Virus record (IMG/VR): IMGVR_UViG_3300025151_008080
Location: 1 to 64,000 of that record
Length of the DNA: 64,000 bases
DNA from: a virus
Reading direction: 5' to 3' (one strand)
Positions 1 through 52,448 of the stretch are shown piece by piece. Within the stretch, counting starts at the first letter, position 1. Every line of letters begins with the position of its first letter. The notes below the pieces were generated by a model, which was not told the DNA's origin, did not search any database, and saw nothing but the letters and a program-made list of their open reading frames with translations. The translations under genes and the position numbers were made by a program.

Positions 1-1
1 T

Positions 2-208
2 ATCTATAATATTAGAAGCTTAGATACATCTAATCCTGTTGTGGCTGGGTTGTTGGGATATACCTATAATGGAGACTTTGGTCTAGATCATAAACCATCG
101 CAGCTGTTAGCAGACTTAATTGGTGCTCAACCAGATGAAGATGCAATAGAGCGTATCTTTTACAATACAAGTCAATTCAAGCGGATTATTAAAAGAAAGT
201 ATTGGTAA
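2..208 (+). CDS. C-terminal fragment of a gene cut by the window edge; possible DpdA-type guanine transglycosylase
   Basis: An open frame runs from base 2 to a TAA at 206-208, giving the last 68 residues of a longer protein. It starts with IRSLDTSNPVVAGLLG and ends in a basic tail (KRIIKRKYW). The Arg-Ser-Leu-Asp-Thr-Ser-x-Pro element and a later KPSQLLADLI resemble C-terminal parts of TGT-like phage proteins as I remember them; this is not a firm family match. The context supports it: the stop codon shares its A with the ATG of a formyltransferase, and queF, an Nmad1 gene and a kinase follow. If correct, the enzyme would exchange guanine in DNA for a 7-deazaguanine base. The catalytic part lies outside the window, so the call is inference. 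Confidence 0.4.
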   Translation: MYNIRSLDTSNPVVAGLLGYTYNGDFGLDHKPSQLLADLIGAQPDEDAIERIFYNTSQFKRIIKRKYW

Positions 209-783
209 TGAAGTGGGTTGCGTTCTTTAGTCAAACTGGTTCAGAGATAGTAAATATCTCTAAAAAACTTAATAGATGGCCTGATCTTGTTGTTACGAAT
301 AAACAAGAAAGTGAATCAACTAATATAAATCTAGTGTACCACTATAAAGACGGTGGTATCGTTACCCTACCTAAGTGGCCAGATATTACGGACTACTTTA
401 GGGCTGCTGACGCTCTTAACTATTCTATCTTAAGAGAAGAGTGGAGAGAGAATGTATTTGTTACTCTACACGGTTATCTAAGAATATTACCTGCAGGGTT
501 TACTAAAGCGTCAAATATTTATAATGGCCATCCTGGAGCTATTGAGCAATATCCTGAATTAAAAGGATTCAACCCTCAAAAGAAAGCATGGGATGGTAAA
601 TACGAGAAGGTAGGATGTGTTATCCATGAGGTAACACCAGAGCTCGATGATGGTCCTGTTGTATCTTCAGTGTTAATTGATAACAATTTTAACACATATG
701 AAGAGCTTGAGAGTGCGCTACATGACGAATCAACAAAACTGTGGATAGATTTTCTAACCTTGAATCTAAAAAACAAGAAATAA
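208..783 (+). CDS. PurN-like formyltransferase, candidate dPreQ1 formyltransferase (DpdN-like)
   Basis: This 191-residue protein has the formyltransferase N-terminal fold of glycinamide ribonucleotide transformylase. It shows the conserved Asn-Gly-His-Pro (N106, H108) and the later ELDDGP with D147; these match the PurN catalytic trio Asn106, His108, Asp144 in order and spacing. The N-terminus (FFSQTGSE) resembles the PurN phosphate loop. The ATG at 208 is chosen over the TTG at 202 because it gives a TAATG overlap with the upstream gene. The neighbours are base-modification genes, not purine biosynthesis genes. A phage dPreQ1 formyltransferase (DpdN) has been described for 7-deazaguanine DNA, so formylation of an aminomethyl-deazaguanine is likelier than a role in IMP synthesis. 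Family is confident; substrate is inferred. Confidence 0.75.
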   Translation: MKWVAFFSQTGSEIVNISKKLNRWPDLVVTNKQESESTNINLVYHYKDGGIVTLPKWPDITDYFRAADALNYSILREEWRENVFVTLHGYLRILPAGFTKASNIYNGHPGAIEQYPELKGFNPQKKAWDGKYEKVGCVIHEVTPELDDGPVVSSVLIDNNFNTYEELESALHDESTKLWIDFLTLNLKNKK

Positions 784-792
784 ATTTTTAAA

Positions 793-1146
793 ATGAAAAC
801 GTACGAAGAAATTAAAACAGAAGTAGAATCAGAATACCCTCAAACATGTGAGATGCTAAAAGAGCTTCTTGAGGAAGAGTATAAGTTGTTTATTAGAAAG
901 CAATACGATTATGGTCCTACAAATATTACTGTCGGTCAAGATATGAACAAACCAGATGGGCGGCAAGTTGCTAAGGCTGGTTTAGTTTTCCGTGTAAATG
1001 ATAAATTGCAGCGACTCGTAAACTTAATTGTCAAGAAAAGAGGTCTCGTAGAAGCAGCAAATGAGCCTATCGTTGATGCCTGGTCCGATACTAGTTTGTA
1101 TTGCAAAATTGCACAGCTAGTCGATAATGGTGTCTGGGGTAAATAA
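793..1146 (+). CDS. Nmad1 / DUF1599-type nucleotide-modification-associated protein
   Basis: A 117-residue protein with the pattern of nucleotide modification associated domain 1: KQYDYGPTNI, then GLVFRVNDKLQRLVNL, then EPIVDAWSDTSLYCKIAQL at the C-terminus. The charged residues in these blocks (Arg, Asp-Lys, Asp-x-x-x-Asp) look like a small helical active site. The family was named because its genes cluster with DNA-base modification genes in phages; no reaction is established that I know of. Here it sits 9 bases after the formyltransferase and 1 base before a P-loop kinase, in the same operon as queF, which fits a role in making or handling a modified nucleotide. Confidence 0.7.
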   Translation: MKTYEEIKTEVESEYPQTCEMLKELLEEEYKLFIRKQYDYGPTNITVGQDMNKPDGRQVAKAGLVFRVNDKLQRLVNLIVKKRGLVEAANEPIVDAWSDTSLYCKIAQLVDNGVWGK

Positions 1147-1147
1147 T

Positions 1148-1702
1148 ATGCTTATTTCATTTACAGGCGCGCAGAGTAGTGGTAAGACTACTCTGTTGCG
1201 TTATTTTTTAGAAGAACACGCTTGGGGTAGTGTAGATGAGGTAACTAGACGTATTCGCCGAGATGGTTTAAGTATTAATGATGGGGAAGCTGATTATAAT
1301 GATACACAATTAGCAATTTTTGCTGATCATATACAAAATATTTTTACGTATAGTGGTAAGCAAATGAATAACGTCTTAGATAGATGTATTGTAGATGGTT
1401 ACATATATACAAGATATTTTAGACAACAAGGTAAAGTAAATGAATTTGTAGATAAAATGTTTACATATGCTCTTAAAAGGTATATAGATAGGTATGATTA
1501 TATCTTTTATACTAATCCATATGATGTACCATTGATTAATGATGGAGAGAGATCAATGAGTAAGAGCTTTAGAAATGAAATTATTAGATTATACGAACAA
1601 CATATATTAGGTAAGTATCCTAATATTTTTATACTTGAAGGTAGTGTAGAAAATCGATATAATCAAATGAACGAAATATTACAGGATGACAAAATTAGAT
1701 AA
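1148..1702 (+). CDS. P-loop kinase/ATPase of the AAA_28 (NadR-like) type
   Basis: The 184-residue protein opens with MLISFTGAQSSGKTTLL, a Walker A motif at residues 6-14, followed by a DRC-x-x-D motif typical of small deoxynucleoside or NadR-like kinases. The ATG at 1148 is preferred over an upstream in-frame start at 1127 because the latter would overlap the Nmad1 gene and add seven residues before the P-loop. The gene lies between Nmad1 and queF and overlaps queF by 17 bases. A related kinase at 35247-35993 sits next to queE. The substrate is unknown; a nucleoside or base-modification intermediate is a reasonable guess from context. Confidence 0.65.
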   Translation: MLISFTGAQSSGKTTLLRYFLEEHAWGSVDEVTRRIRRDGLSINDGEADYNDTQLAIFADHIQNIFTYSGKQMNNVLDRCIVDGYIYTRYFRQQGKVNEFVDKMFTYALKRYIDRYDYIFYTNPYDVPLINDGERSMSKSFRNEIIRLYEQHILGKYPNIFILEGSVENRYNQMNEILQDDKIR

Positions 1703-2600
1703 CTCAAAAATAAGTAAGCACTTAGGTCAGGTTAGTCAATACAAATCTGAGTATGACGCTGGTCTATTAGTACGTGAACCTCGATCTAACAATCGAAGGC
1801 ATTTAAAAATTAAAGCATCTGACTTACCGTTTGTAGGTTGTGATGTTTGGAACGGGTATGAAGTATCTGCGTTAGCTAATAACGGAGTACCAGTATGTGG
1901 GGTAGCGAAAGTAGTTTATCCTAGCGATAGTAAATATATCGTTGAATCAAAGTCTATGAAGCTATATTGGAATAGTTTTAATATGACTAGACTCGGAGAT
2001 ACCTTTTCACAGGTTATTAAAAATCTTGAAAATACTGCTTCAGAAGACTTAAGTAGTTATCTTCAAACAGATGTAAGAGTAAGCGTCTTCCCATGTAAGA
2101 CAGATGTGAGTGGTGTTGCATACCCTTATGCTGAAGATCAATGGATTCGCTTAGAGAATAGTCGGAGCATTGATTCTGAGTGTTATTATATAAATGTCTA
2201 TAGCGAAGATCCTTCTCTTTTAGAAACAAAGGTCCCAGGAGTAAACGATGGTTATATGAAGGTAATGTCATCCTTGCTCAAAAGTAATTGTCGTGTTACT
2301 TCTCAACCTGACTGGGGTGATGTTTTTATTAAGCTAAGAGGTAAATATCATCCTGATGAGAGTGAGTTGCTTAAGTATATTGTGTCATTCAGAGATGAAT
2401 GTCACTTTCATGAAGAGATTTGTGAAACTATATTTACTCGACTTAATACAATATATGAGCCTGATGAGCTATCAGTAGCGTGTTTGTATGCAAGACGAGG
2501 TGGTTGGGATATTAATCCAATCAGAGCAACTCATGAACATCTAATTGAAGAGTTCTTATGGGAAGAAGAAATACCTTGGGTTAAGACTCTAAGGCAATAG
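1686..2600 (+). CDS. queF: NADPH-dependent 7-cyano-7-deazaguanine (preQ0) reductase QueF, long form
   Basis: The 304-residue protein is a full-length, two-domain (E. coli type) QueF that reduces preQ0 to preQ1 with NADPH. Visible landmarks are the ESKS NADPH-site motif (residues 87-90), the NSFN block, the catalytic Cys202 with Asp209 in NCRVTSQPD, the FHEE at 241-244, and ARRGGWDINPIR near the C-terminus. All key residues seem intact. It ends the rightward operon that starts with the cut-off gene, and a strong bidirectional hairpin follows. The other preQ genes (queE, queD, folE2 at 36-38.5 kb; queC at 51.7 kb) are elsewhere in the window. Because preQ1 rather than preQ0 is the product, the DNA base is expected to be preQ1-derived. 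Confidence 0.93.
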   Translation: MTKLDNSKISKHLGQVSQYKSEYDAGLLVREPRSNNRRHLKIKASDLPFVGCDVWNGYEVSALANNGVPVCGVAKVVYPSDSKYIVESKSMKLYWNSFNMTRLGDTFSQVIKNLENTASEDLSSYLQTDVRVSVFPCKTDVSGVAYPYAEDQWIRLENSRSIDSECYYINVYSEDPSLLETKVPGVNDGYMKVMSSLLKSNCRVTSQPDWGDVFIKLRGKYHPDESELLKYIVSFRDECHFHEEICETIFTRLNTIYEPDELSVACLYARRGGWDINPIRATHEHLIEEFLWEEEIPWVKTLRQ

Positions 2601-2608
2601 TAGACAAA

Positions 2609-2636
2609 AAAAGGCGGCCCTTACGGACCGCCTTTT
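2609..2636. terminator. Bidirectional intrinsic terminator between queF and the capsid gene
   Basis: AAAAGGCGG (2609-2617) pairs perfectly with CCGCCTTTT (2628-2636). After one C-A mismatch a further CC/GG pair closes a TTAC loop. A-rich and T-rich flanks on either side make it work on both strands. It lies between the convergent queF (+) and major capsid (-) genes, just after a doubled stop (TAGTAG) of queF. Confidence 0.88.
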
Positions 2637-2656
2637 GCTTTTATAATCAATTAAGA

Positions 2657-4201: not shown

Positions 4202-4281
4202 AATTTATTATTGTTTCCTTTCATTTTTTCCGTTGCATTGGAGAATCAGGTAACAAATACCTCAACAGTTGTAAAGATTAC

Positions 4282-5166
4282 TTAGAGACGCATGTTAGCA
4301 AGCTCTTGAGCATATCCATGTACGTGAGATTTAGGTTGCTCAGATTTCTCTTCAACAACTTTAACCTCTGCATCCTTGGTCTTACGCTCCTTCACTGCTT
4401 CTTCCTTAAGAATCTCAAGAGATTCTTGAGCCTTCTTATCGAACATTGTCACTGTGTAATCAAAATTTTCTTCGATAAACGCGAGATCTTTATCTTTGAA
4501 TGTCTTTCTTACGAAATTACATTTCTTTTCATCAAGACCGTTTAGTTTCTTCTCTAAGAATAAGTCCTTCTTAATTGTATCTAACTCATCTTTAATAGAT
4601 TTGTTTTCACCTGTAAGATCAGAGATAGCTTTCTTAGATTCTTCAATGGTCTGCTTACCATCAACAACAGCTTCTCTAATAGACTCATTAGCAAGTACCA
4701 TATCAACAGATAAGCTCTTGCGTATATCTTTCAGTAAGTCATAAGCGCGACGGTTTTGAGTAGCTTCCTCAATCGCTTGTGTAGGAATAGCCTCGTCAAT
4801 ATATGAGTCAAGATAGTTTGAGACAGACTCTACTAATGTATCTTTGAGTGTAGTAGCTTCTTCGTTGAGTGCTGTTTGATATTTACGAATTACGTTCTGT
4901 AATTTACGTGTACGATCTTTATCAACCGCTTCAACGACCTTCTCTAATTTGGCGCAATGATCTTTGTCGATTGCTTCAATTAGTGTCTCTAACTTTTTCG
5001 AGTACTCTTCGTCCTGGGCCGTAAGAGCAGCTTCAGTCGCGATTTGCGCGCGCTCGTCAGCTTTCTTCTCGACAGCTTCGTTAAAAACTGTTTCTATAGA
5101 CTTAAGACTTTCTTCATTAAGAACGTCTTTACCTACTTCCTGTAATAAATCAGTTATCTTGCTCAT
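4282..5166 (-). CDS. 22: Prohead core scaffolding protein (T4 gp22-like)
   Basis: A 294-residue, highly charged, almost wholly helical protein with long Lys/Glu coiled-coil stretches, as expected of the internal scaffold around which the prohead shell forms. Its place between the prohead protease and the capsid gene is the T4 position of gene 22. The C-terminus (SHVHGYAQELANMRL) is the part that resembles T4-like gp22 tails. After assembly it is expected to be degraded by gp21. The reading frame is tightly packed: two bases separate its ATG from the stop of a 48-codon core-protein gene upstream. Confidence 0.88.
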   Translation of the reverse strand: MSKITDLLQEVGKDVLNEESLKSIETVFNEAVEKKADERAQIATEAALTAQDEEYSKKLETLIEAIDKDHCAKLEKVVEAVDKDRTRKLQNVIRKYQTALNEEATTLKDTLVESVSNYLDSYIDEAIPTQAIEEATQNRRAYDLLKDIRKSLSVDMVLANESIREAVVDGKQTIEESKKAISDLTGENKSIKDELDTIKKDLFLEKKLNGLDEKKCNFVRKTFKDKDLAFIEENFDYTVTMFDKKAQESLEILKEEAVKERKTKDAEVKVVEEKSEQPKSHVHGYAQELANMRL

Positions 5167-5168
5167 GA

Positions 5169-5315: not shown

Positions 5316-5325
5316 AATTATTTAT
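5316..5325 (-). promoter_or_regulatory. Late-promoter-like ATAAATAATT motif before the small core gene
   Basis: On the minus strand GATAAATAATT abuts the ATG at 5315. It is one substitution from the T4 late promoter TATAAATA. It leaves no room for a leader, so a transcript begun here would be leaderless. Confidence 0.5.
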
Positions 5326-20006: not shown

Positions 20007-20024
20007 CGTATAATTAATTATACG
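20007..20024. promoter_or_regulatory. Perfect 18-base palindrome between divergent genes
   Basis: CGTATAATTAATTATACG is its own reverse complement and fills the whole gap between the ATG at 20003 (minus) and the GTG at 20024 (plus). It contains TATAAT on both strands. It could be a shared operator or paired minus-10 boxes; no good minus-35 was found. Confidence 0.45.
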
Positions 20025-21076
20025 TGAAAAAAGATCTTTCAACTAAATTCTGCGACCATCCATGGACATTTTTAGAGATACAAGAAAAAGGTCTATATAA
20101 TTGTTGTCCACGATGGGTAAACCATAACAAAATAGGAGAATTAAATCCTACTATTGATTTCATGGAAGAGTGGAACAGTAAGAAAAGTAGAGAATTCCGA
20201 CAATCTATTTTAGATGGATCATTTAGTTTATGTAATCATGAAGAATGTCCTAAAATTCAAAACGGTACATTACCAGATAAAAAAGATATACTTGCAGGCA
20301 GATATGGTGATGAGTTAAAGTTTATTGTTGAGTTTGGAATGGATGTCGCTCAACCACCAAACACAATAAATTTATGTTATGATAAATCTTGTAATTTAAG
20401 ATGTCCAACATGCAGGAAAAATCTTATTCAATACACTGAAAAAAACGAACCTCAAAAATACAAAAATACTATGATGATAAATAAGCGCTTACTGCGTATG
20501 ATTCATAGTAAACCACATAAAGTGCATTTAAATATTACTGGTTCTGGAGATCCGTTTGGTTCTCCATCGTTTTTTGAATTAATGAAAAAGGTAGAACCGG
20601 CAAAAAACCCACAAGTATCATTTACACTACAAACTAACGGAGTGTTATTTGATGAGAGCAGGTGGGAGAAACTTAAAAATATACATAAACAGGATATACA
20701 CGCTATCATAAGCTTAGATGCTGGTATAAAAGAGCACTACGATTTAGTGAGAGTAGGTGGAGATTGGGACAAACTAATGAAAAATCTTCACTTTATAGCT
20801 AAATTAGATCTCAAGTCAGTAAGATTAGATATGGTCGTTCAGAGAAATAATTATAAAAGTATTCCTGAGTTTATTCAAATAGCTCAAGCTCATAATTTTG
20901 ACTCATATACATCGAGAGTATATAACTGGGGTACCTTTACTCAACAAGAGTATAATACTCACAACATATTTGATCAAAATCACCCAGAACATCAAAACTT
21001 TTTAAAGATTTTAAACCAAGATTACCACTATCATAAACACGACTGGGGTAACTTAACAGACTTTATTACAGACTAA
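20024..21076 (+). CDS. Radical SAM protein with N-terminal SPASM/twitch-type cluster
   Basis: The 350-residue protein starts with GTG. Residues 10-75 hold a SPASM/twitch-like pattern (C10-x2-PW, C27-C28, WNS, C70, C75) placed before the radical SAM core CNLRCPTC with Cys 123, 127 and 130. The SAM-binding strand follows (NITGSGDPF). Such twitch-first proteins are known in marine phage and bacterial islands. The substrate is not known; its place at the head of a rightward block of transferases and methyltransferases suggests modification of a sugar or peptide acceptor. Confidence 0.8.
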   Translation: MKKDLSTKFCDHPWTFLEIQEKGLYNCCPRWVNHNKIGELNPTIDFMEEWNSKKSREFRQSILDGSFSLCNHEECPKIQNGTLPDKKDILAGRYGDELKFIVEFGMDVAQPPNTINLCYDKSCNLRCPTCRKNLIQYTEKNEPQKYKNTMMINKRLLRMIHSKPHKVHLNITGSGDPFGSPSFFELMKKVEPAKNPQVSFTLQTNGVLFDESRWEKLKNIHKQDIHAIISLDAGIKEHYDLVRVGGDWDKLMKNLHFIAKLDLKSVRLDMVVQRNNYKSIPEFIQIAQAHNFDSYTSRVYNWGTFTQQEYNTHNIFDQNHPEHQNFLKILNQDYHYHKHDWGNLTDFITD

Positions 21077-22147
21077 ATGAAAATAGCAGTACTATTATAC
21101 GGGCAGCCAAGATTTTGGGACTTAAGCTACGAAAGTATTATACAAGAAACAACATTTGAAGGATGTACCACAGATTACTACTTTCACTTCTGGGATAAAA
21201 TAGGGTATAACGGCTCAGATTCAGAAAACATATTAACAGATGAAATAAAAGAAAAAATTGTTAGTGTATATAAACCTAAAAAATACGAGTTTACTGACTA
21301 TGAACCACTTGTAGCAGACACTGAAAAGGTATACAAACATGTAGATATAGCGAGAAAAGAAATTGAAAATTTAAATCTTCAAAAGACTATTTTTGAGACA
21401 TGTGAGCCAGGTCATTTATCGTATTATACTGGTCAGTTTACGTCTCTTGAGAGAGTAGCAAATTTAGTAGAAGAAGAATATGATTATATATTTCGAATTC
21501 GTACGGACTTAATCTTCGCAACTCCTGATTTATATGATACAAAAAGAGATTATTTTTATGATAAAAGGTATTTTTATGATAAAATGTTAAATGGTCAAAA
21601 AGGTGTGTTTTGTAAATACGGAGATCTACAAATATGGGAAGGAGCAGAAGATAAATCCGGTAATAATACTGATCACCAACCGAAATCTAGAAAAACATAC
21701 GAGAGTATTACATATCTGAATAATAATTTTTACGGTAAACGTCGTAACTTAGGTATAAGTGATAGATACAAATCAGATACACAATATTTACATATAAAAG
21801 ACTGGTGTATGCTAGGTAGCGCAACAGAAATGCTTAAGTGTATGAAGAGTTATATACAAACAATCATAGATATGGTGTATAAAAGTCAGCAATTGCTTAT
21901 TAAAAATAATATTGATGTTAATTGGTCTGCAGGAGAGCTTGTCTGTGGAGAATCTCTAGTAAAGGAAAAAGTAAATGCAATAGAGTTAGGTTATCAATAT
22001 TATCACAATATGATTATACCTAATAGATTTTTAAAAATAGCTAATAAACATACTAAACAATGTATACTTGATAGACCTCATGTAAGAGTTTTAGCAGACT
22101 CGGGTATATCTATGAAAAAGCAATATAAAAAGATTATAGATAGATGA
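21077..22147 (+). CDS. Putative glycosyltransferase of a GQPRF-type family, copy 1
   Basis: A 356-residue protein starting MKIAVLLYGQPRFWDLS, with YYFHFWDKIG, YYTGQFTSLERV and IFRIRTDLIF (the R-x-R-x-D-L strand), and KDWCMLGSATEM. The same layout recurs at 23854 and 25582, and in a diverged form at 26604. The DL after the strand could be a divergent DxD site. I know this family only as putative transferases of phage and giant-virus islands; donor and acceptor are not known. It starts right after the stop of the radical SAM gene. Confidence 0.55.
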   Translation: MKIAVLLYGQPRFWDLSYESIIQETTFEGCTTDYYFHFWDKIGYNGSDSENILTDEIKEKIVSVYKPKKYEFTDYEPLVADTEKVYKHVDIARKEIENLNLQKTIFETCEPGHLSYYTGQFTSLERVANLVEEEYDYIFRIRTDLIFATPDLYDTKRDYFYDKRYFYDKMLNGQKGVFCKYGDLQIWEGAEDKSGNNTDHQPKSRKTYESITYLNNNFYGKRRNLGISDRYKSDTQYLHIKDWCMLGSATEMLKCMKSYIQTIIDMVYKSQQLLIKNNIDVNWSAGELVCGESLVKEKVNAIELGYQYYHNMIIPNRFLKIANKHTKQCILDRPHVRVLADSGISMKKQYKKIIDR

Positions 22148-22698
22148 GTAAAGAGATACGAGATATAATATACGCGACTTGTATATCTATAAAAAGCATA
22201 TGTTTGGAGGTAGGAGTACATAGAGGTATAAATGCAGAAAAAATTGCTAAACATAACCCTCAAAAACTATACTTAATAGATTGTTGGGACTGTCAAAGAA
22301 CTAATTTAGAAGAAAAAAATATTATAATTCATTCTCACGCGGGGGCAAATAATGAAAAACAAACCAACTGGTATAATGAAGTAAAAGAAAAATTTCAAAA
22401 TAATACAAATGTAGAAATAATAAAAGAATATTCTCATGTCGCGTGTGAGAGTTTTGAGAATAACTTTTTTGATTTTATATATATCGACGGTTTACATGAT
22501 TATAGCTCTGTGCTACAAGACCTCAACATGTGGAAAAATAAACTCAAAACCACAGGGATAATACTTTGTGATGATTATACCGAAAACTCTAAAAGAGGGT
22601 ACGGTGTAATACCAGCAATAGAATCTTTCTTAAAAAATAATACAAAGTTTACCGGACAGCTACTCGGGCAGCAGCTTTTTTTATTAAAACAACAATGA
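22144..22698 (+). CDS. Class I SAM-dependent methyltransferase
   Basis: A 184-residue Rossmann methyltransferase: LEVGVHRGINAEKI (motif I), LYLIDCWD (acidic motif II), FFDFIYIDGLHDYSSVLQDL and GIILCDDYTE. The FIYIDG-H-Y-x-x-V-x-x-DL pattern is the Methyltransf_24 type, often O-methyltransferases of sugars. It overlaps the preceding gene by four bases (ATGA). A paralogue follows at 23357. Confidence 0.8.
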   Translation: MSKEIRDIIYATCISIKSICLEVGVHRGINAEKIAKHNPQKLYLIDCWDCQRTNLEEKNIIIHSHAGANNEKQTNWYNEVKEKFQNNTNVEIIKEYSHVACESFENNFFDFIYIDGLHDYSSVLQDLNMWKNKLKTTGIILCDDYTENSKRGYGVIPAIESFLKNNTKFTGQLLGQQLFLLKQQ

Positions 22699-23375
22699 TA
22701 GATATAATTTATAGTTATTATAATCAGTACAATACACTATCAACACAAGTACAGCTTTTAAATTCATACTCTAAAGAAACAAAAAACACAGTAAATCTTA
22801 TATATGTTGATGATAACAGTACTCAGACTGCTAAGCAATATTTAGAAAAACTAAAATTAACATATTCTCTATACTATATTACTGAGAATGTAGGTTGGAA
22901 TAACGGTGGAGCAAAAAATTTAGGTATATACAACTCAAAAAGTGACTGGAAAGTTGTGTTAGATATAGATATGTTTTTAACGGATAATCTCTTGCAAGAG
23001 ATTTTTTTGTATCCAAAGAGGGAAAATTGTATATACAAGTTTCTTACAAATAAAATAGAAAGTACTAACCCTATAATACATAAAACATACCCCGGAGCGC
23101 TAATGATACATAAAAACGCAGTAGAAAAAATTGGTTATTTTGATGAAGATTTTTGCGGAAACTACGGGTGCGAGGATAAAGCATATTTTGCGAAAGCTAG
23201 ACACTACAATTTTAAAACTGTAAAGTTGAGAACAGAAAATAAGCTTATATTTTTAGACGGTTTACCACGAAAAAAATCTCCTGAACCTATAAACGTGAAA
23301 TTATTCGATAGTAAAAATAAAAATAAAGAGTGGTCGACAGACATCTTACGATTCAAATGGAAGAAAATAATATAA
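22695..23375 (+). CDS. GT2-family glycosyltransferase
   Basis: The 226-residue GT-A protein has the N-terminal fold of GT2: IIYSYYNQYNTL, YVDDNSTQTAKQYL, ENVGWNNGGAKNLGI and the DxD-type VVLDIDMFLT, then FDEDFCGNYGCEDKAYF with a probable catalytic acidic residue. An inverting galactosyl- or rhamnosyltransferase is possible. It overlaps the genes on both sides (4 and 19 bases). Confidence 0.78.
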   Translation: MIDIIYSYYNQYNTLSTQVQLLNSYSKETKNTVNLIYVDDNSTQTAKQYLEKLKLTYSLYYITENVGWNNGGAKNLGIYNSKSDWKVVLDIDMFLTDNLLQEIFLYPKRENCIYKFLTNKIESTNPIIHKTYPGALMIHKNAVEKIGYFDEDFCGNYGCEDKAYFAKARHYNFKTVKLRTENKLIFLDGLPRKKSPEPINVKLFDSKNKNKEWSTDILRFKWKKII

Positions 23376-23857
23376 TATATAGAGAAGATATACCAAGAGC
23401 TATAACTAATACTAACCCTATAGGGATTGAATTAGGAGTCGCAGGAGGCCGTTTTAGTGTAAAGCTAAATAATAAACACTCTTTCAAAAAGTTTTATTGT
23501 GTAGATAAGTGGAATGATAAACATAATATAAAAGAGTATTATGATGCACTTCATCGTTTGAATAAAGATAATATATATGTATTAAGAATGTCTTTTGAAG
23601 AGGCTCATACATTATTCGAAGATAACTTTTTTGATTTTATATATATTGACGGTTATGCTCATACAGGGCAAGATTCAGGAGTAACAATTAATAGCTGGTA
23701 TAATAAACTTAAAAAGGGCGGAGTTTACGCGGGACATGATTATAATATAGAAGAATGGCCGAAAAATGTAGAACATATAAATAATTTTTTAACACAAATC
23801 GATAAAAAACCAAACCTCACAACAGAAGCCTGGGCTTCGTGGTGGATAAAGAAATGA
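23357..23857 (+). CDS. Class I SAM-dependent methyltransferase, paralogue
   Basis: A 166-residue methyltransferase with IGIELGVAGGRFSVKL (motif I), FYCVDKWND, NFFDFIYIDGYAHTGQD and GGVYAGHDYN. The ATG at 23357 is chosen over one at 23330 because the extra nine residues carry no family similarity and would enlarge the overlap with the GT2 gene. It is a paralogue of the gene at 22144-22698 with the same FFDFIYIDG core, pointing to a duplicated transferase plus methyltransferase cassette. Confidence 0.78.
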   Translation: MEENNIIYREDIPRAITNTNPIGIELGVAGGRFSVKLNNKHSFKKFYCVDKWNDKHNIKEYYDALHRLNKDNIYVLRMSFEEAHTLFEDNFFDFIYIDGYAHTGQDSGVTINSWYNKLKKGGVYAGHDYNIEEWPKNVEHINNFLTQIDKKPNLTTEAWASWWIKK

Positions 23858-24894
23858 GACTAGCAGTACTTATATACGGACAACCTAGGTTTTTTGAAAA
23901 AACCGCTGATATAATAAAAAAAGAATTTGAAATACCTGGTTGGCAAACAGATTTTTTTATACATAATTGGGAAAACGTCGGGCATACCCCAGCATGTGAC
24001 GAGAATAATGATTACGACGAAAAATGTAACCAGGTAATTATACAAGAAAAACTAAATCCTATTACATATAATATAGAGAGTTATGATATAATATACGATT
24101 ATGCGAAAAAATATATTGAATGTATTAAGCAATTAACAAATAGAAAAGTACCGTACGGGAATAACTATAATTTAGAGCGATACTTCTTCGGTCAACATAT
24201 AAGCACACAAAGGTGTTATGAGTCTATTAAGTTATATGAAGATATAAATAATTTTCAATATGATATAATTATAAAAGCAAGAACAGATATAATTTATACC
24301 CCAAGTTATTGCTACAACACCGAAGAAGAGTACGTAGATCATAAGAAAGCAAACTATAGTGTATTAATTAATGACAGACCGGTGTGTCACGCGAATGGTA
24401 TTAGATATAATACGTTTAATAACACAGAAAATAAATGGGAAGCGAATCCGCTGAAATATTTCTATGAAAACAAGATGTCGCCAATGAATTTACCAACAAA
24501 TAAATGGTATAATGAAGTAGAATATAAATGGGGATATTGGGATCGGCTTTTAATAAATGATTGGTCTTTAGTATGTAATAGATTAGCAGCAGAGGTTTAT
24601 TATAATAAGTGGTTTGATAATTTATTTTTGACTCTTGGTAAAGATTTACTACATAATAATTTGAAAACTAGATGGTTATCAAGATCAGAACACACTCTTC
24701 AAGGCGAGTTAACAATAAACAATAAAGTAGAGTGTAAGTGGATGGGTCGTAGAAGAGATAAAAAAATTATCTCTGCAGAAAAAATTAAAGAGGATGTAAC
24801 AACATCTGATAAAATATTACTTTATCGAAATGATTGCATAAAAACATTACATAATAAAATACGGGAAATGTTTCCTGATAAAATAATAAGATGA
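23854..24894 (+). CDS. Putative glycosyltransferase of the GQPRF-type family, copy 2
   Basis: A 346-residue protein beginning MRLAVLIYGQPRFFEK; FFIHNWENVG, FFGQHISTQRCYESI and IIIKARTDIIYT match copies 1 and 3 in order. LLINDWSLVCNR is the counterpart of the KDWCMLGS block. The ATG at 23854 overlaps the methyltransferase stop as ATGA. Function as in copy 1; not proven. Confidence 0.55.
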   Translation: MRLAVLIYGQPRFFEKTADIIKKEFEIPGWQTDFFIHNWENVGHTPACDENNDYDEKCNQVIIQEKLNPITYNIESYDIIYDYAKKYIECIKQLTNRKVPYGNNYNLERYFFGQHISTQRCYESIKLYEDINNFQYDIIIKARTDIIYTPSYCYNTEEEYVDHKKANYSVLINDRPVCHANGIRYNTFNNTENKWEANPLKYFYENKMSPMNLPTNKWYNEVEYKWGYWDRLLINDWSLVCNRLAAEVYYNKWFDNLFLTLGKDLLHNNLKTRWLSRSEHTLQGELTINNKVECKWMGRRRDKKIISAEKIKEDVTTSDKILLYRNDCIKTLHNKIREMFPDKIIR

Positions 24895-25619
24895 GAGAAG
24901 TATTAAAAAGATCATTTGAAAAAATTTATTGTATAAATTTAAACGATAGAGTAGATAAGTGGGAGAAATGTCGTGCAATTTTCAAAAAACATAACATTGA
25001 AGATTTAGTACAGCGGTGGGAAGCAACAGAACCTAAAAATAAAAACAAAAAAGGGGATTGTGTTTACGCATGCGCGCACAGTCATGTTAGTATTATTACC
25101 CATGCATATGAAAATAATATAAAAAATATATTAATATTAGAAGATGATGTAGAATTTGTAGATGATTACAACGGTATATCAGCAGAACATATATTAAACG
25201 CTGGAATGTCTCAGATAAAGGAAAAAAACATATCATGGGATTTATTCTTTTTAGGGTATAGTTTTAAATTACGAGAGTTTTGTAATTATAGTCAATTAAC
25301 CCCTAATGTATTTCAAAGTACGAACCAATTACAAACTCATTGTTACGCAGTTAATTCTAATATATACAAAAAAATAATAAATGATAATGTCCCTGGTAAA
25401 GCTGCTATGGATGAATACTATGGTATATACCTTTCTCATAAAGTAAACGCATTAAATTTGTTTCCACTAATTACTTACCAAAGAAATGATATTTTATGCG
25501 ATATAGGTAACAACGTCCGTAAAGATAGAATTAAATTATACAACAGAGAAATACAGTTTTGGGAGAAAAAATTATATGGGTATGAAAAAGATTGCAGTAT
25601 TAATACACGGTCAGCCTAG
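24891..25619 (+). CDS. GT25-family glycosyltransferase
   Basis: The 242-residue protein matches GT25 (LPS beta-1,4-galactosyltransferase LgtB / LpsA type): FEKIYCINLNDRVDKWEKC at the N-terminus, CAHSHVSIITHAYEN, and ILILEDDVEFVDDY with the acidic motif. The C-terminal part carries THCYAVNSNIYKKI. GT25 enzymes build lipooligosaccharide in Proteobacteria, so this gene was probably taken from a Gram-negative donor. It overlaps the preceding gene by four bases and the next by 38. Confidence 0.85.
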   Translation: MREVLKRSFEKIYCINLNDRVDKWEKCRAIFKKHNIEDLVQRWEATEPKNKNKKGDCVYACAHSHVSIITHAYENNIKNILILEDDVEFVDDYNGISAEHILNAGMSQIKEKNISWDLFFLGYSFKLREFCNYSQLTPNVFQSTNQLQTHCYAVNSNIYKKIINDNVPGKAAMDEYYGIYLSHKVNALNLFPLITYQRNDILCDIGNNVRKDRIKLYNREIQFWEKKLYGYEKDCSINTRSA

Positions 25620-26601
25620 ATTTTTAAATTATACCTGGAAATTTATAAAAGAAGAGTATACCGTACCTAACTATGAAACTTACTATTTTGGTCACTTGTG
25701 GGAAAAAGTAGGTTTCGTACCCGATGACTGTCGTAATACTAATTATATACAGCATAATATAGATAAACAAATATTAAACAATTTAAATGATGTATCAATT
25801 ACTAATTATGATATTTTAGATGCAACAACAAAAGAGTTTCATCCTAAAATAAGCAGATATTTACATAATAAAGTAAAAAGTTTTGAGAATAGACTAGATG
25901 TAGTAAAAAAATTAAGGTATAGATACGGACAACATGTGAGTAAACAATTATGTTATGATGTTTGTTGCAATTTCGAAAAAAATAACGATATAACTTTTGA
26001 TATAATAGTTGTAATAAAAACCGATTTTGTCTATAAAAGAAAAAACTGTTATAAAAAACCTGAAAATTACGAACTTGAAAAAATAGAACTATATGATGAC
26101 GTAGAATGTAACTCTAATATTGTTAAAAATGTTACACTATGTTATGAAGAATGGCAATCATATACAAAAATGACAAATAAATACAATGTAACATCCTCAA
26201 CTGAACTACCTGAGCATACTATTTACAATAGATTATTAATGAACGACCATTGGTTAATGGGTAGTAGAGATGCAATGAGTATATATTGTACTAAATGGTT
26301 TGAAACTCATGAATTATTACTGCAAGAACTAAAAGATCAAAACTTTGACCAGAATTATGTAAATATAATTCCTAAAAAATACGGATGCCCCTTTATGATG
26401 CAAGGGGAAATAGGTTTAAAAAACAATATTACACTAAAACGAACCAACAAACGATTTAAACGAGTAGTGTTGCTTAATAACTGTAAAGAAAAATTCTTAC
26501 CTAATGGTAAAAACGGTAGAGAAGTAATACATAATCAACTTAGAGATATACAAACAGAGCAATTGTATATAGAGAATAGATTACAAGAAATATTTTCTTA
26601 G
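25582..26601 (+). CDS. Putative glycosyltransferase of the GQPRF-type family, copy 3
   Basis: A 339-residue protein beginning MKKIAVLIHGQPRFLNYT with YYFGHLWEKVG, YGQHVSKQLCYDV, IIVVIKTDFVYKR and LLMNDHWLMGSRDAM. An alternative ATG two codons earlier (25576) exists; the one used here lines up with the other copies. It overlaps the GT25 gene by 38 bases. It ends the rightward block and converges on the gene at 26604. Confidence 0.55.
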   Translation: MKKIAVLIHGQPRFLNYTWKFIKEEYTVPNYETYYFGHLWEKVGFVPDDCRNTNYIQHNIDKQILNNLNDVSITNYDILDATTKEFHPKISRYLHNKVKSFENRLDVVKKLRYRYGQHVSKQLCYDVCCNFEKNNDITFDIIVVIKTDFVYKRKNCYKKPENYELEKIELYDDVECNSNIVKNVTLCYEEWQSYTKMTNKYNVTSSTELPEHTIYNRLLMNDHWLMGSRDAMSIYCTKWFETHELLLQELKDQNFDQNYVNIIPKKYGCPFMMQGEIGLKNNITLKRTNKRFKRVVLLNNCKEKFLPNGKNGREVIHNQLRDIQTEQLYIENRLQEIFS

Positions 26602-35244: not shown

Positions 35245-35254
35245 AATTATTTAT
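35245..35254 (-). promoter_or_regulatory. Late-promoter-like ATAAATAATT motif before the 63-codon gene
   Basis: AATAAATAATTAT followed by GTG, the same arrangement as at 7844-7853. It overlaps the end of the kinase gene. Confidence 0.45.
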
Positions 35255-35993
35255 TCTTCTCGAAAGAATCCTCGATCTGTTTGTTCATTTCTTTTTTAAC
35301 GTAAGAATGTTCCTCGGGATCTACGTCTTTCCATACCCCTTCAAGCTTTTTAATATCTTCCATTAGTTCTGGATCAATAATATTACCAGGCTCATGAGCA
35401 TCTCCTTCCGCATCTATATAGAGCTTAAGGATTTCAATTCGCTCTCTTCTATTACCAAATACTTCTATAATAGCTGGTTTATCGTCGTGTACAAAAAGAG
35501 TTGTTTTAGGGTTGTTTTGATAATCTCTGTGTACTGCTTTAAACAGATAGTCTATCTCTTCAATAATTTTTGTATCTCTTACACCATCTTCTTCTACCTC
35601 TACTGGAGCTGATTGGGTGATGGGGGTAAAAAAGATAATATCTAAATTACGAAAACTCTCTCGTACGAGAGGAATACATTTTTGTATAAACCCGTCATCA
35701 ATATCTGTATCAGATTGCTCAGATGCCCACAAACTATAAACCAAGTTATCTAAAGGGCATCTATCAAAGATCACATTCTCACCTCGCCTATACTTACTAA
35801 GCTCCTCAATTTGAAAATTAAGAATATCCCATTGAGTTTTTTTATTAGTTTTTGATGAGTGTTCGAGATTATTATCCGTAATAATGTCTCTATAGGTTTT
35901 CTGCGGAGTCTTATAGCCAGGCCATTGTTCTAAAAAATCCTTAATTAAAGTACTCTTACCTTGACAAGCTGTACCGCTGATTGCAATCCTCAT
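35247..35993 (-). CDS. P-loop kinase/ATPase of the AAA_28 type, second copy
   Basis: The 248-residue protein starts MRIAISGTACQGKSTLI (Walker A residues 7-15) and has VIFDRCPLDNLVYSLW, the DRC-x-x-D motif shared with the kinase at 1148-1702. A C-terminal acidic and helical extension of about 100 residues (DPELMEDIKKLEG) is absent from the shorter kinase. It sits 16 bases from queE. The substrate is unknown; location next to preQ genes in both copies suggests a link to the modified base or to nucleotide salvage. Confidence 0.65.
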   Translation of the reverse strand: MRIAISGTACQGKSTLIKDFLEQWPGYKTPQKTYRDIITDNNLEHSSKTNKKTQWDILNFQIEELSKYRRGENVIFDRCPLDNLVYSLWASEQSDTDIDDGFIQKCIPLVRESFRNLDIIFFTPITQSAPVEVEEDGVRDTKIIEEIDYLFKAVHRDYQNNPKTTLFVHDDKPAIIEVFGNRRERIEILKLYIDAEGDAHEPGNIIDPELMEDIKKLEGVWKDVDPEEHSYVKKEMNKQIEDSFEKNK

Positions 35994-36009: not shown

Positions 36010-36753
36010 TTAAACCTTTAAAGCCATATCCCATACTAATAAATGTAGTCTTGGACTAAAATTAAAGTAATGTTTTTTAGCTAACTCAGCTACCATAGGA
36101 GCTACTTTAATATGCTCCTCTCTACTACCGCAACAAGGCATTAACCAAACTCTCCCCGGTGGTATATCAAACGGGTCAATATATTTCTCAATAACCTCAT
36201 CTAAGTCTGACTCCTTACCTATAACAAACTTAAAGCCAGAATTGTGAGTTGCGTGCCATTCTAGTACATTAGGTTTATATCTTCTATCTTCAGGGTCACC
36301 ATTATTACTAAGCTTCGGAGAAGTAGTAAATGTAGCACCATACCGCAACCACTCTTTATCGGGCATAATAGTAGCGTTAGTTTCAAAATCTATTCTCGGT
36401 ACACTACCCCACTCTACATCCATATAATAGATAAAATCAAGCAATGACCTTTGCTGTACAAGAGGCTCTCCACCTGTAATTTTAAGTATAGCTCCATTAC
36501 GTAGATGTTCTGAATATTTTTCTTCTTCTAATAATTTAAGAAGATTTTCATACGTAAATTTATTCTTAATACTCCATGACACATAACTATCACATCCATG
36601 AGGAGAAGCATCAGAAGCAAATCCTTTACATGTAAGATTACACATCGATAGTCGCATAAATACAGACGGGTAACCGACGTATTCACCTTCACCCTCTACT
36701 GTGTAGAAGACTTTATCATCTGATAAAAATATTGTTTTGTCTTTTTCTTCCAT
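36010..36753 (-). CDS. queE: 7-carboxy-7-deazaguanine synthase QueE (variant Cys spacing)
   Basis: The 247-residue radical SAM enzyme converts carboxytetrahydropterin to 7-carboxy-7-deazaguanine. It has YTVEGEGEYVGYPSVFMRL, the GGEPL SAM-binding loop (ILKITGGEPLV), FETNAT and the short QueE-type fold. The cluster cysteines are Cys38, Cys42 and Cys54, i.e. C-x3-C-x11-C instead of C-x3-C-x2-C; other QueE groups also vary here. It is expressed with queD and a 54-codon gene in one leftward block led by the promoter at 37386-37413. It fills the middle of the preQ pathway, making the substrate of QueC. Confidence 0.88.
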   Translation of the reverse strand: MEEKDKTIFLSDDKVFYTVEGEGEYVGYPSVFMRLSMCNLTCKGFASDASPHGCDSYVSWSIKNKFTYENLLKLLEEEKYSEHLRNGAILKITGGEPLVQQRSLLDFIYYMDVEWGSVPRIDFETNATIMPDKEWLRYGATFTTSPKLSNNGDPEDRRYKPNVLEWHATHNSGFKFVIGKESDLDEVIEKYIDPFDIPPGRVWLMPCCGSREEHIKVAPMVAELAKKHYFNFSPRLHLLVWDMALKV

Positions 36754-36920: not shown

Positions 36921-37379
36921 TTAAAATTTGTTTATATCTACGTTATTGTTTTTATATATAGCAGAGTTTTTCTCGTGCTCAAATAACTCAACTTCCGAAC
37001 ACCAACATCTGTCGTTAGTTTGTAACTTTACATATTTATCTGCTTCTTCGCAGCAAAATTGTGCAAATTTTTCTATACCAACACCATCCATAACTCGCAA
37101 ATCCACAACTCCAATATCAGATAACTTTCTAAACTCTTCTAACGCCGGGTCCTTTCTAGATACAACTAATGTATGATCGAATTGTCTTTCTAGATCTTTT
37201 TTAAGATCTTTTAAACCACCGAAATCTACAACCCAATTATTCTCATCTAGCTTATAAGCTCCGAACTTAAACTTAGCAATTAAACGATAACCATGAATAA
37301 AGCGGCAATGAGACGTAGCTTCCGGTTGCCGAAAAGCACAGCTACCTAATTCGATAATCTTAGTACTATAAAAACTCAT
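36921..37379 (-). CDS. queD: 6-carboxytetrahydropterin synthase QueD-like
   Basis: The 152-residue protein of the PTPS family forms 6-carboxytetrahydropterin from dihydroneopterin triphosphate. It contains FRQPEATSHCRFIHGYRL (His24, Cys25, His29), VVDFGGLKDLK, FDHT (residues 67-70) and a C-terminal VELFEHE. The usual HGH zinc pair reads HGY (Tyr31), a variation I have seen in a phage-type group but cannot verify. The ATG at 37379 is chosen over an in-frame ATG at 37403 because the promoter's TATAAT ends six bases before it. Confidence 0.85.
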   Translation of the reverse strand: MSFYSTKIIELGSCAFRQPEATSHCRFIHGYRLIAKFKFGAYKLDENNWVVDFGGLKDLKKDLERQFDHTLVVSRKDPALEEFRKLSDIGVVDLRVMDGVGIEKFAQFCCEEADKYVKLQTNDRCWCSEVELFEHEKNSAIYKNNNVDINKF

Positions 37380-37450: not shown

Positions 37451-38485
37451 ATGGACAGTAAATATGAATGGTTAGGAGAAGACGACGAACTAACCGGTGA
37501 AAAGGATGTTATTGCTAAAGAGATTATGGGTGATGAATATAGTAAAAGCTATTTCCCGCCTATACGAGTTTACGATAATAATGTAAATGCTAATAAGAAA
37601 TACATTGCGTCATTACCAGATCTGCAAAACGGGCCTTCGAGCTTAATTCAAGGCGCAGCTGTACCTATCCAGCAAGTAGGTATCCATAATTTTAAATTAC
37701 CTCTTACATATAAAAAGAGGTGTGGGGATACAATAGAACTAGAAACAAGCGTAACAGGTAGCGTTAGTTTAGAGGCACACAAAAAAGGTATTAACATGTC
37801 TCGTATTATGAGAAGTTTTTATGATCATAAAGAAGATGTCTTTAGTATTGGTAAGATTAAAGATGTTTTAGAGACATATAAAAATAATCTTAAGAGTTTT
37901 GATTCTCGTATCATGTTAAAAATATCATACCCTATTAAGCAAAAAAGCTTACGAAGCGGCTTAGAGGGATATCAATATTACGATGTAGTTTTTGAAGGAG
38001 ATTTAACTAAAGACGGAGAATTTAAAAAATATATTCATTTTGATTTTGTTTACTCATCAGCTTGTCCATGTAGTTTTGAGTTGAGTGAACATGCAGAGAA
38101 ATACCGCAACAGAGCAACCGTTCCGCACAGTCAGAGAAGTGTAGCTCGGGTAAGTGTTAAGTTTGATGAAATGCTGTGGGTTGAGGACTTACAGGAATTG
38201 TGCTTAGAAGCACTGCAAACTGAAACACAAGTAATGGTAAAGAGAGAAGACGAACAAGCATTCGCGGAAAAGAATGGAGCATACTTAAAGTTTGTAGAGG
38301 ATGCAGTAAGATTACTTTATGATAAACTTACAAATGAATCTAGAATTACAGATTTTAAAATTGTAGCATCTCACAACGAAAGCTTGCATAGTCACAACGC
38401 TGTATCTGTAATCGTCAAAGGGGTACCAGGCGGCTTTACCGCGGGAGTAGCGAGAGATGTTTTTGAGTCAACTGGCTTAAGGTAA
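37451..38485 (+). CDS. folE2: GTP cyclohydrolase IB (FolE2 type)
   Basis: The 344-residue protein is FolE2, which opens GTP to dihydroneopterin triphosphate, the first step to preQ0. Landmarks: [39 protein letters not shown] with metal-binding Cys, [12 protein letters not shown], and [12 protein letters not shown]. About 50 extra residues before SLPDLQ make it longer than many homologues; a later in-frame ATG at 37529 is an alternative. A possible reason to carry FolE2 is its tolerance of metals other than zinc. It is divergent from queD with the two promoters back to back. Confidence 0.9.
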
Positions 38486-47576: not shown

Positions 47577-47601
47577 TTAAATTTGTTTTTGTGCATATAA
47601 T
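47573..47601 (+). promoter_or_regulatory. Early sigma70-like promoter of the DNA polymerase gene
   Basis: TTGATT (47573-47578), 17-base spacer, TATAAT (47596-47601), seven bases to the GTG at 47609. Confidence 0.7.
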
Positions 47602-47608
47602 TTAAAAA

Positions 47609-50266: not shown

Positions 50267-50283
50267 AAATTGTATACTACAAT
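50256..50283 (+). promoter_or_regulatory. Early sigma70-like promoter before the Sm-like gene
   Basis: TTGCAA (50256-50261), 16-base spacer, TACAAT (50278-50283), six bases to the ATG at 50290. It overlaps the end of the polymerase gene. Confidence 0.6.
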
Positions 50284-50289
50284 ACGTGT

Positions 50290-50649
50290 ATGGATATAAT
50301 TACGTATGTAGATAGTATAGGTAGAACTTGTTTTGGAGAGTTAGTTGAAGAGACTAGTGATTTTGTCAAAGTCAAGGCTCCTGCGATGATTATGGTTACT
50401 CCGAATGATCCGAGTAATATGAAAGTTGATGTGATGCCTTTGTTTTTTACTGAATTCTCTAATGGAGAATTACCTATTTTCAATTATAAAACTACACAGA
50501 TTGTAAAAGTCGATGTAGATATTTCAGATAAAATCTTAGTGCACTACGAGGCTAAGATTAATGTGAAACAGGAACCGAACCCTGAACCAGTACCAGAAAC
50601 CTTGGAAGAAGAAGTACCTGAAATTGCCTTGTTCGAAGAAAGTAAGTAA
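50290..50649 (+). CDS. Small conserved phage protein, Sm-like fold possible
   Basis: A 119-residue protein starting MDIITYVDSIGRTCFGEL. The N-terminal 85 residues look like a five-strand barrel of LSm type (VKVKAPAMIMV, IVKVDVDISDKILVHYEAK); the last 30 are a Pro/Glu acidic tail. T4-like marine phages keep a similar small gene between DNA polymerase and uvsX. Function unknown. Confidence 0.55.
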   Translation: MDIITYVDSIGRTCFGELVEETSDFVKVKAPAMIMVTPNDPSNMKVDVMPLFFTEFSNGELPIFNYKTTQIVKVDVDISDKILVHYEAKINVKQEPNPEPVPETLEEEVPEIALFEESK

Positions 50650-50650
50650 T

Positions 50651-51739
50651 ATGTCTAAACTCGCTGATAAAGTATTTGCTAAATTGCAAAAATTAAATCA
50701 AAACGCAACAACACTAGAAAATAATACTCTTAGTAATGTCACTGATTGGATTGATACTGGTTGTTTTGTATTAAATTCTATCCTTTCAGGTTCTATTTAT
50801 GGTGGTGTACCTAAAGGTAGAATTACAATTTTTGGTGGGGAATCCGGATGTGGGAAGACATTCATTCTCAATAAGATTTTAGCAAATGCTCAGCGAAAAG
50901 GCATGATACCTATTATTTTTGATACAGAGGTTGCTGTTGAAACAGAAGGTGCTAAAAACGTCGGTTTAGATACTAGTAATGTAAAGTATGTTCCAGTAGA
51001 TACTGTTGAGAGTTGTCGTAATCAAATGATGGCTTTTCTTGACGATGTCGAAAAAGAACCTGAGTTACATGGTAAGTTTATTATCTCTATCGATTCGTTA
51101 GGTAACCTTGCGTCGGAAAAAGAAATTAACGACGCGCATTCGAACAAAGGAGCCATGGATATGGGACTACGAGCTAAGCAATTAAAATCCATGATGCGTA
51201 TGATAACGTTTAAAGCTGCAGTAACTGGTACAACAGTTATATGTAGTAATCATACCTATGCTGATCCTGGAGCTTTACATCCAACGCTAGTAAAGCAACA
51301 AGCTGGTGGTTCTGGTCCTATATACATGGCTTCTATTCTTGTTCAAATGGCTGCAAAGAAAGAAAAGACAGACGCTTCAAACGAAAGCGATGAAGCGATT
51401 TCAGAGAGTAGAAATTATTCTGGTGTTACATTGAGAATGTTAACAGTAAAAAATAGATTTATACCTGCTTTCTTACAAGGAGAGGTGTACTTAAACTTTA
51501 AAACTGGTTTAGAGAAATATTCCGGTCTAAAAGATATCGCTGTAGCGCACGGTATTATACAACAAAACGGTTCTACGTATGCAATGGGAGAGCAAAAACT
51601 AGGTTATTACAAGAATTGGCGCAATAATGATGAAGTATGGAATAATATTCTTCCTAAGATAGAATCATCTATAAATGAAAAGTACCGGTATGGTAAGTCG
51701 TTAGACGAACCCACTATTTTAGAGCAAGATAATGAGTAA
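50651..51739 (+). CDS. uvsX: UvsX RecA-like recombinase
   Basis: The 362-residue protein has FGGESGCGKTFIL (Walker A), IIFDTEVAVE, FIISIDSLGNL (Walker B) and a GDNN-like DNA loop region with TTVICSNHTY. It starts at the ATG at 50651; an in-frame start at 50624 would overlap the small gene. UvsX drives strand exchange with UvsY and gp32, both present here. The last bases overlap queC. Confidence 0.93.
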   Translation: MSKLADKVFAKLQKLNQNATTLENNTLSNVTDWIDTGCFVLNSILSGSIYGGVPKGRITIFGGESGCGKTFILNKILANAQRKGMIPIIFDTEVAVETEGAKNVGLDTSNVKYVPVDTVESCRNQMMAFLDDVEKEPELHGKFIISIDSLGNLASEKEINDAHSNKGAMDMGLRAKQLKSMMRMITFKAAVTGTTVICSNHTYADPGALHPTLVKQQAGGSGPIYMASILVQMAAKKEKTDASNESDEAISESRNYSGVTLRMLTVKNRFIPAFLQGEVYLNFKTGLEKYSGLKDIAVAHGIIQQNGSTYAMGEQKLGYYKNWRNNDEVWNNILPKIESSINEKYRYGKSLDEPTILEQDNE

Positions 51740-52448
51740 AGCAGTAGTACCTATTTCAGGAGGGTTAGATAGTTCGGTAATCTTAAGTTTAGCCGCCGCG
51801 GCTCATGATGAGATTTATGCGCTAACGTATGATTATGGTCAAAAGCATACAAAAGAAATTATATATGCTGGCATACAAATTGATAATTATGATAATATCG
51901 AAGAGCATAAAGTTATTGATATAAGTTTCTTTAAAGATATTGCCCCAACATCCTCTCTAACTAACAATAAAATAAAAGTAGCACATGCTCGAGATGTACT
52001 AGGAGATGCGCAAACTGTAAATTATGTTCCGTTCCGTAATATGATGATGTTATCTATTGCATGTTCGTATGCAGAAGCAGTCGGAGCTGATACGGTATAT
52101 CATGGTTCTGCTCTTGTAGACAGTCAAGCAGGTTATTGGGATGGAAGTAAAGAATTCTTAGAACAAATTAACAACGTTACTAGCTTAAACAGAAAGAATA
52201 AAATACAAATAAAAGCCCCACTAATTAAACTATCTAAAAAAGAAATTATACAATTAGGTATAGATAATAACGTTCAGTTTGAAGATACCTGGACGTGTTA
52301 CGAAGGAGAAGAGAAAGCATGTGGTTACTGTACTGCTTGTAGCTCTCGCATACAAGGGTTTTTACAAAATAAACTTATTGATCCGGTTGAATACAAACGA
52401 GAAGATATTCCATGGGTGAGAATAGTTGATTTACATATGAAAGGTTAA
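51732..52448 (+). CDS. queC: 7-cyano-7-deazaguanine (preQ0) synthase QueC
   Basis: The 238-residue ATP pyrophosphatase has VPISGGLDSSVIL (residues 6-18), YDYGQKHTKE, VPFRNMMML, and a zinc site with Cys189, 197, 200 and 203 (CYEGEEKACGYCTAC). It converts carboxydeazaguanine to preQ0 with ATP and ammonia, giving the substrate of QueF. It overlaps uvsX by eight bases. A class II glutamine amidotransferase follows after 14 bases. Confidence 0.93.
   Translation: MSKAVVPISGGLDSSVILSLAAAAHDEIYALTYDYGQKHTKEIIYAGIQIDNYDNIEEHKVIDISFFKDIAPTSSLTNNKIKVAHARDVLGDAQTVNYVPFRNMMMLSIACSYAEAVGADTVYHGSALVDSQAGYWDGSKEFLEQINNVTSLNRKNKIQIKAPLIKLSKKEIIQLGIDNNVQFEDTWTCYEGEEKACGYCTACSSRIQGFLQNKLIDPVEYKREDIPWVRIVDLHMKG

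Follow-up and report, generated by a model that had tools for sequence, protein, structure and literature searches.

Why should a bacterial virus carry every enzyme needed to make preQ1, a 7-deazaguanine, from GTP? The DNA that raises this question comes from IMG/VR virus record IMGVR_UViG_3300025151_008080; the stretch analysed here, referred to as the window, comprises bases 1–64000 of the 70,759-base record. An original prediction, made from the sequence of the window, identified five pathway genes—folE2, queD, queE, queC and queF—lying in three places, and proposed that their product modifies the DNA of the virus rather than the tRNA of its host. Family searches (Pfam, NCBIfam and PHROGs) bear out all five genes at their predicted coordinates, with E-values that exclude chance (Table 1). 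The prediction also took the presence of all five as grounds for excluding a role in queuosine synthesis; this argument is not decisive by itself. The evidence below makes it very probable that the locus encodes a 7-deazaguanine DNA-modification system, in which preQ1, probably in N-formylated form, is exchanged for guanine in phage DNA and thereby blocks host restriction.

A transglycosylase gene at the contig edge

Modification of DNA requires a DNA transglycosylase, and one is encoded: the window begins inside dpdA, and near-complete relatives carry an intact dpdA together with the whole pathway. A DpdA-family profile matches the fragment at positions 2–208 (E=2.2e-21, model positions 199–258 of 258). 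Over 68 aa the fragment has 94% identity to the intact DpdA proteins of the IMG/VR relatives L003, L004, L006, L008 and L009, and over 57 aa it has 46% identity to the C-terminus of DpdA from Flavobacterium phage immuto (vB_FspM_immuto). Many of the relatives are fragmentary, so absences among them weigh little. Three relatives have an intact dpdA as the first gene of this operon: G001 (127 kb), G005 (225 kb) and G007 (116 kb). In G002 (171 kb) it is found ~6 kb further upstream. The family corresponds to PHROG 19058 (phrog_19058), a PHROG distinct from that of the DpdA2 of phage nt-1; we take DpdA3 to be the label of this family, to which the proteins of phages CP220 and immuto belong.

A Pfam search of the record for tRNA-guanine transglycosylase (TGT) came back empty. 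Taken alone this result would have misled, and a Pfam TGT match is absent from all DpdA proteins scanned. A DpdA profile search against the PDB gave no match either, so a structural route was used. The modelled DpdA of a close relative (L012; 48% identity to immuto DpdA, 37% to CP220 gp056) has a predicted local distance difference test (pLDDT) score of 91; in structural comparison it matches TGTs as well as 7ui4, a crystal structure of DpdA (Z 18.1, 238 residues, 3.2 Å). The protein of this relative is thereby predicted to have the TGT/DpdA fold. Together, the dpdA fragment, the intact dpdA genes of relatives, and a search that detected neither TGT nor QueA in 10 viral records (that of the window and nine relatives, up to 225 kb, some of them fragments) lend strong support to the modification of DNA rather than tRNA.

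From GTP to a probably formylated base

The operon at the left end of the window is longer than first described, and consists of (i) the dpdA 3' end, (ii) a formyltransferase gene, (iii) a small conserved gene, (iv) a kinase gene, and (v) queF. The original prediction held that the product of QueF is preQ1, not preQ0. As far as QueF is concerned this stands: the protein passes the test for a nitrile reductase (as against QueF-L), with the catalytic Cys and Asp and the NADPH motif ESKSxK present, and the motifs ESKSMKLY, SNC, QPDWG and FHE are conserved with respect to V. cholerae QueF (3bp1) and in 61 sequences. Its score against TIGR03138, 249.7 bits, falls under the 293-bit cut-off. As a description of the final base the claim is incomplete, since the formyltransferase gene beside dpdA leads one to expect that preQ1 is converted further, to N-formyl-preQ1.

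The model of the formyltransferase (pLDDT 91) matches PurN. The Asn-His-Asp catalytic set (N106/H108/D147) is invariant in 57 relatives, as is a Glu (SQTGSE) in place of the phosphate-loop Asn of PurN (SGNGSN). The gene is 44% identical to its counterpart in immuto, where the order dpdA–formyltransferase–kinase–queF recurs, as it does in dozens of uncultured contigs. Among 64 DpdA3 loci gathered by DpdA3 alone, the formyltransferase lies between dpdA and kinase/queF in 61, queF is present in 62, and the two occur together in 60. Because a PurN-fold formyltransferase is conserved beside dpdA with queF, N-formyl-preQ1 is the expected base; plain dPreQ1 (the deoxynucleoside of preQ1) is expected in the relatives that lack the enzyme. 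A dPreQ1 formyltransferase, DpdN, and a DpdA3 subfamily associated with complete guanine replacement were reportedly described by Cui et al. in 2023, and the locus of the window agrees with both.

Immediately downstream of queC lies a gene for a glutamine amidotransferase (Gat), the active-site residues of which are intact and invariant. All queC loci long enough to show it (64/64) have a homologue on the downstream side of queC. Synteny of related phages partly explains this count; the stronger evidence is that the arrangement recurs in unrelated phages, queC being immediately followed by the Gat gene in Vibrio phages nt-1 and 6E35.1a, and that Gat and QueC are fused in phage 9g. Since Vibrio phage 6E351A, which has the same pair plus queF, carries a base of dPreQ1 mass, the simplest reading suggested by these sequences, and one that is new here, is a split Gat-QueC in which the glutaminase supplies ammonia.

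The proposed pathway would run as follows. GTP would be converted to preQ0 through FolE2, QueD, QueE and QueC (QueC probably being fed ammonia by the adjacent glutaminase), and QueF would reduce preQ0 to preQ1. The PurN-like enzyme would probably N-formylate the aminomethyl group, either before or after insertion. The DpdA3-type transglycosylase, acting together with the P-loop kinase, would put the modified base in the place of guanine in phage DNA, possibly at every G, and the base would then block host restriction enzymes. The modification chemistry is of a known kind: in Dp-1, a phage with a QueF-family gene, dPreQ1 makes up ~1.7% of G (PMC6884629); in the QueF-bearing 6E351A, ~15% of dG is modified, with a mass consistent with dPreQ1 (PMC12028318); and the DNA of CP220 is reported to contain 100% dADG (2'-deoxy-7-amido-7-deazaguanosine; PMC8306585).

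Three other explanations deserve consideration. The genes could raise the supply of preQ1 for host tRNA during infection, leaving the DNA unmodified; the same five enzymes produce preQ1 for tRNA, and Hutinet et al. proposed a queuosine role for phages that have preQ0 genes and no DpdA (PMC6884629). Here, however, a dpdA fragment heads the operon, queF accompanies nearly all DpdA3 loci, formylated preQ1 fits nowhere in queuosine synthesis, and TGT and QueA were undetected in the records searched, so that we consider this explanation highly improbable. Only slightly better placed, and still improbable, is an archaeosine-type base (dG+), made from inserted preQ0 by the split Gat and QueC, which would jointly serve as an archaeosine synthase. 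The Gat-QueC fusion of 9g occurs in a dG+ phage (PMC6884629), and the constancy of the Gat gene 3' of queC in the lineage of the window would fit. The same queC-gat pair, along with queF, is nonetheless found in 6E351A, whose modified base has the mass of dPreQ1 (PMC12028318), and the QueF of the window is a reductase by motif.

A less easily dismissed, though still unlikely, explanation accepts that DpdA inserts preQ1 and leaves it at that: the base would be plain dPreQ1, and the formyltransferase an unrelated enzyme of purine synthesis, namely a glycinamide ribonucleotide (GAR) formyltransferase. The closest solved structures to the formyltransferase are indeed GAR formyltransferases, and four loci (L053, L074, L075 and L079) have dpdA, kinase and queF without it, which indicates that the enzyme is not essential. 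Yet its position between dpdA and kinase/queF in almost every DpdA3 locus is hard to reconcile with an unrelated function, the invariant Glu in the phosphate loop disfavours GAR as the substrate, and no other purine-synthesis genes were noticed near the formyltransferase.

Formylated preQ1 in DNA therefore remains our preferred explanation, against which several points must be set. The record holds only the C-terminal quarter of DpdA, and for the integrity of the gene we depend on the relatives. An hhalign comparison of the DpdA family with bacterial TGT gave no sequence-level match, so their kinship rests on fold, context and the annotation of immuto. The formyltransferase is missing next to dpdA in the four loci named above, and its substrate (preQ1 or dPreQ1) is predicted from gene context. 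The kinase is placed in the scheme as a candidate partner of DpdA3. More generally, we infer from the genes what the product is, how much of the guanine is replaced, that the base is formylated, that QueC receives ammonia from the glutaminase, and that the modification is protective.

Table 1. Features of the modification system in the window, in order of position.
Feature	Position	Strand	Match or remark
dpdA 3' end (68 codons + stop), DpdA3-type DNA-guanine transglycosylase	2-208	+	truncated by contig edge
PurN-fold formyltransferase, candidate DpdN (preQ1/dPreQ1 N-formyltransferase)	208-783	+	Formyl_trans_N 3.1e-9; ATG at 208
Small conserved gene, phrog_1485	793-1146	+	kept in operon; no Pfam match
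P-loop nucleoside/nucleotide-kinase-like protein (AAA_28, phrog_2107)	1127-1702	+	AAA_28 2.3e-14
queF, NADPH-dependent preQ0 reductase, two-domain type	1686-2600	+	TIGR03138 3.8e-74
Second AAA_28 P-loop protein, adjoining queE	35247-35993	-	AAA_28 family match
queE, 7-carboxy-7-deazaguanine synthase (radical SAM)	36010-36753	-	QueE PHROG 2.4e-46
queD, 6-carboxytetrahydropterin synthase	36921-37379	-	PTPS 2.1e-16; QueD PHROG 8e-37
folE2, GTP cyclohydrolase IB	37451-38485	+	GCHY-1 4.9e-72
queC, preQ0 synthase, directly 3' of recA/uvsX-like gene	51732-52448	+	2.8e-59
Stand-alone class II glutamine amidotransferase, probable ammonia supplier to QueC	52463-53107	+	GATase_6 7.7e-9

The kinase and the early pathway enzymes

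The kinase-like gene of the operon lies no more than 2.5 kb downstream of dpdA3 in 62/64 loci, and persists in loci that lack the formyltransferase or queF, indicating that it tracks the transglycosylase. Outside the lineage of the window, a homologue (28% identity) sits directly adjacent to dpdA in CP220, and a kinase adjoins the DpdA3-type gene, beside a DNA polymerase gene, in Campylobacter phage CC_R7, Bacillus phage BSTP12 and Weizmannia phage Youna2. In all, the DpdA3-adjacent kinases fall in two subfamilies, and their pairing with a DpdA3-type gene, which is also new here, extends over six or more phage lineages. In the DpdA1 and DpdA2 cluster regions fetched from nt-1, 6E35.1a and 9g, a kinase-profile search gave no match. 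The polymerase neighbourhood is not specific, given that a polymerase gene is also close to the transglycosylase gene of 9g.

One conceivable, if rather doubtful, role for DpdA3 and the kinase is a pre-replicative nucleotide route. In this, the short transglycosylase would exchange the base of a free nucleotide, dGMP or a related one; the kinase would phosphorylate the resulting deaza-nucleotide, and the polymerase would insert it at every G. If true, such a route would account for complete replacement. It conflicts with the literature view, in which the exchange is post-replicative.

Some divergent members of the DpdA3 family came to light alongside these pairings. In BSTP12 and Youna2 (L444, L445), DpdA3-like genes that are very divergent, and had gone unrecognised, form part of preQ0 gene clusters; each overlaps a kinase gene, and a gene for a family A DNA polymerase comes next. 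In Chryseobacterium phage MA9V-3 (L447 3387-4654), a weakly DpdA3-like gene occurs right after a gene for a small Walker-A P-loop protein, near folE; both are annotated as hypothetical.

The first pathway enzyme is FolE2, with a score of 278 bits against the equivalog NF010200 (cut-off 215) and an alignment to 2r5r. Isolate phages hardly ever have FolE2 (three weak matches were obtained); in the uncultured relatives it is common, with queD and queE alongside. Of 13 records, nine have FolE2, three have FolE, one has neither and none has both. In both the window and the close relative G007, queD and a shared cytidylyltransferase-like gene flank one and the same position, which is held by folE2 in the window and by folE in G007. 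In this phage lineage FolE2 has taken over the position of FolE, an enzyme to which it is not homologous, a finding that is new here. The closest cellular relatives of the phage FolE2 are on marine Planctomycetaceae chromosomes (82–84% identity), which group with the phages at 100/99; Flavobacteriales were rejected as a source, the marine Planctomycetaceae being closer. To our knowledge, Cui et al. (2023) treated neither the DpdA3-kinase pairing, nor split Gat-QueC, nor phage FolE2.

FolE2 is also unusually similar among the uncultured phages compared (86–97% identity, against 54–75% for TerL and gp23), and most neighbours of folE2 diverge far more than FolE2 itself in the loci compared. A recent transfer, suspected because FolE2 shows 92–97% identity where TerL shows 54–74%, was rejected: the four-fold degenerate sites are saturated, and the identity thus reflects slow protein evolution, not recency.

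The remaining genes of this cluster have peculiarities of their own. Roughly half of 80 FolE2 loci have the second AAA_28 gene beside queE, queD and folE2. In QueD, the usual zinc-site histidines (HGH) are replaced by FRQ...SHC...HGY, a variant that is shared by queD genes adjoining folE2 in marine Flavobacteriales. The idea of a zinc-sparing pathway (FolE2 plus QueD with HGY) was dropped; G007, which has FolE1, has the same QueD, and QueC retains its cysteines. For QueE, several QueE TIGRFAMs match, all below their cut-offs, and the cluster loop reads CX3CX11C, with an insertion between cysteines 2 and 3 that is invariant in 61 sequences.

Genome setting and closest known systems

The record belongs to an uncultured marine bacterial virus that is distantly T4-like. 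Its gene content is that of T4-like phages—major capsid protein gp23, portal, prohead protease, DNA polymerase, SbcCD-like proteins, replicative helicase, single-stranded DNA-binding protein, and a terminase recognised by its sequence at 67194–68900 of the record—and the distance is evident from gp23, just 32% identical to that of the best isolate. A megablast search of 25 kb against phages gave zero matches. End repeats are absent, making the record probably a fragment from which genome completeness cannot be judged. Hints as to the host diverge, with the operon pointing towards Flavobacterium phages and FolE2 towards Planctomycetes.

Further genes were noted along the record. A glycosyltransferase-like gene (53104–53802, Glyco_tranf_2_5) follows the Gat gene and is kept, amid replication genes, in 4/4 long relatives; it may serve base or surface glycosylation. 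Window positions 20024–26601 contain radical-SAM-like and glycosyltransferase-like genes, plus phrog_13607 copies at 21077, 23839 and 25576. At the right end of the record, on the minus strand (69463–70757; L001 5463–6757), are sulfotransferase-like and nucleotide-sugar pyrophosphorylase-like genes, judged by sequence alone.

Among the closest known systems is that of immuto, also the nearest isolate relative by queF. It shares the order dpdA, formyltransferase, 'thymidylate kinase', queF (identities: DpdA 46–48%, formyltransferase 44%, QueF 46%, kinase 29%), but differs in having FolE instead of FolE2, a family A DNA polymerase, and dpdA, queD, queE, folE and queF within one stretch; its queC is not followed by an annotated amidotransferase. 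Campylobacter phage CP220 (Firehammervirus) has a DpdA of the same family with the homologous kinase directly after it; the base reported for it, dADG, does not derive from preQ1 (PMC8306585), and searches of Campylobacter phages gave no QueF or formyltransferase match. The vibrio phages of Schizotequatrovirus type (KVP40, 6E351A and nt-1) are likewise distantly T4-like and have FolE, QueD, QueC, mostly QueF, and Gat after queC. They differ in their unrelated, longer, DpdA2-type transglycosylase, in having FolE instead of FolE2, and in the lack of a kinase-family match in the fetched cluster regions; no formyltransferase match was obtained among Vibrio phages.

This work places a preQ1-based DNA modification, probably formyl-capped, in a widespread, uncultured and distantly T4-like lineage. 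It illustrates that the gene deciding the function of a pathway can hide at a contig edge, and, by drawing attention to two neglected partners (the glutaminase after queC and the kinase beside DpdA3), makes two questions testable: where the QueC of phages obtains its ammonia, and how some phages replace all of their guanines.

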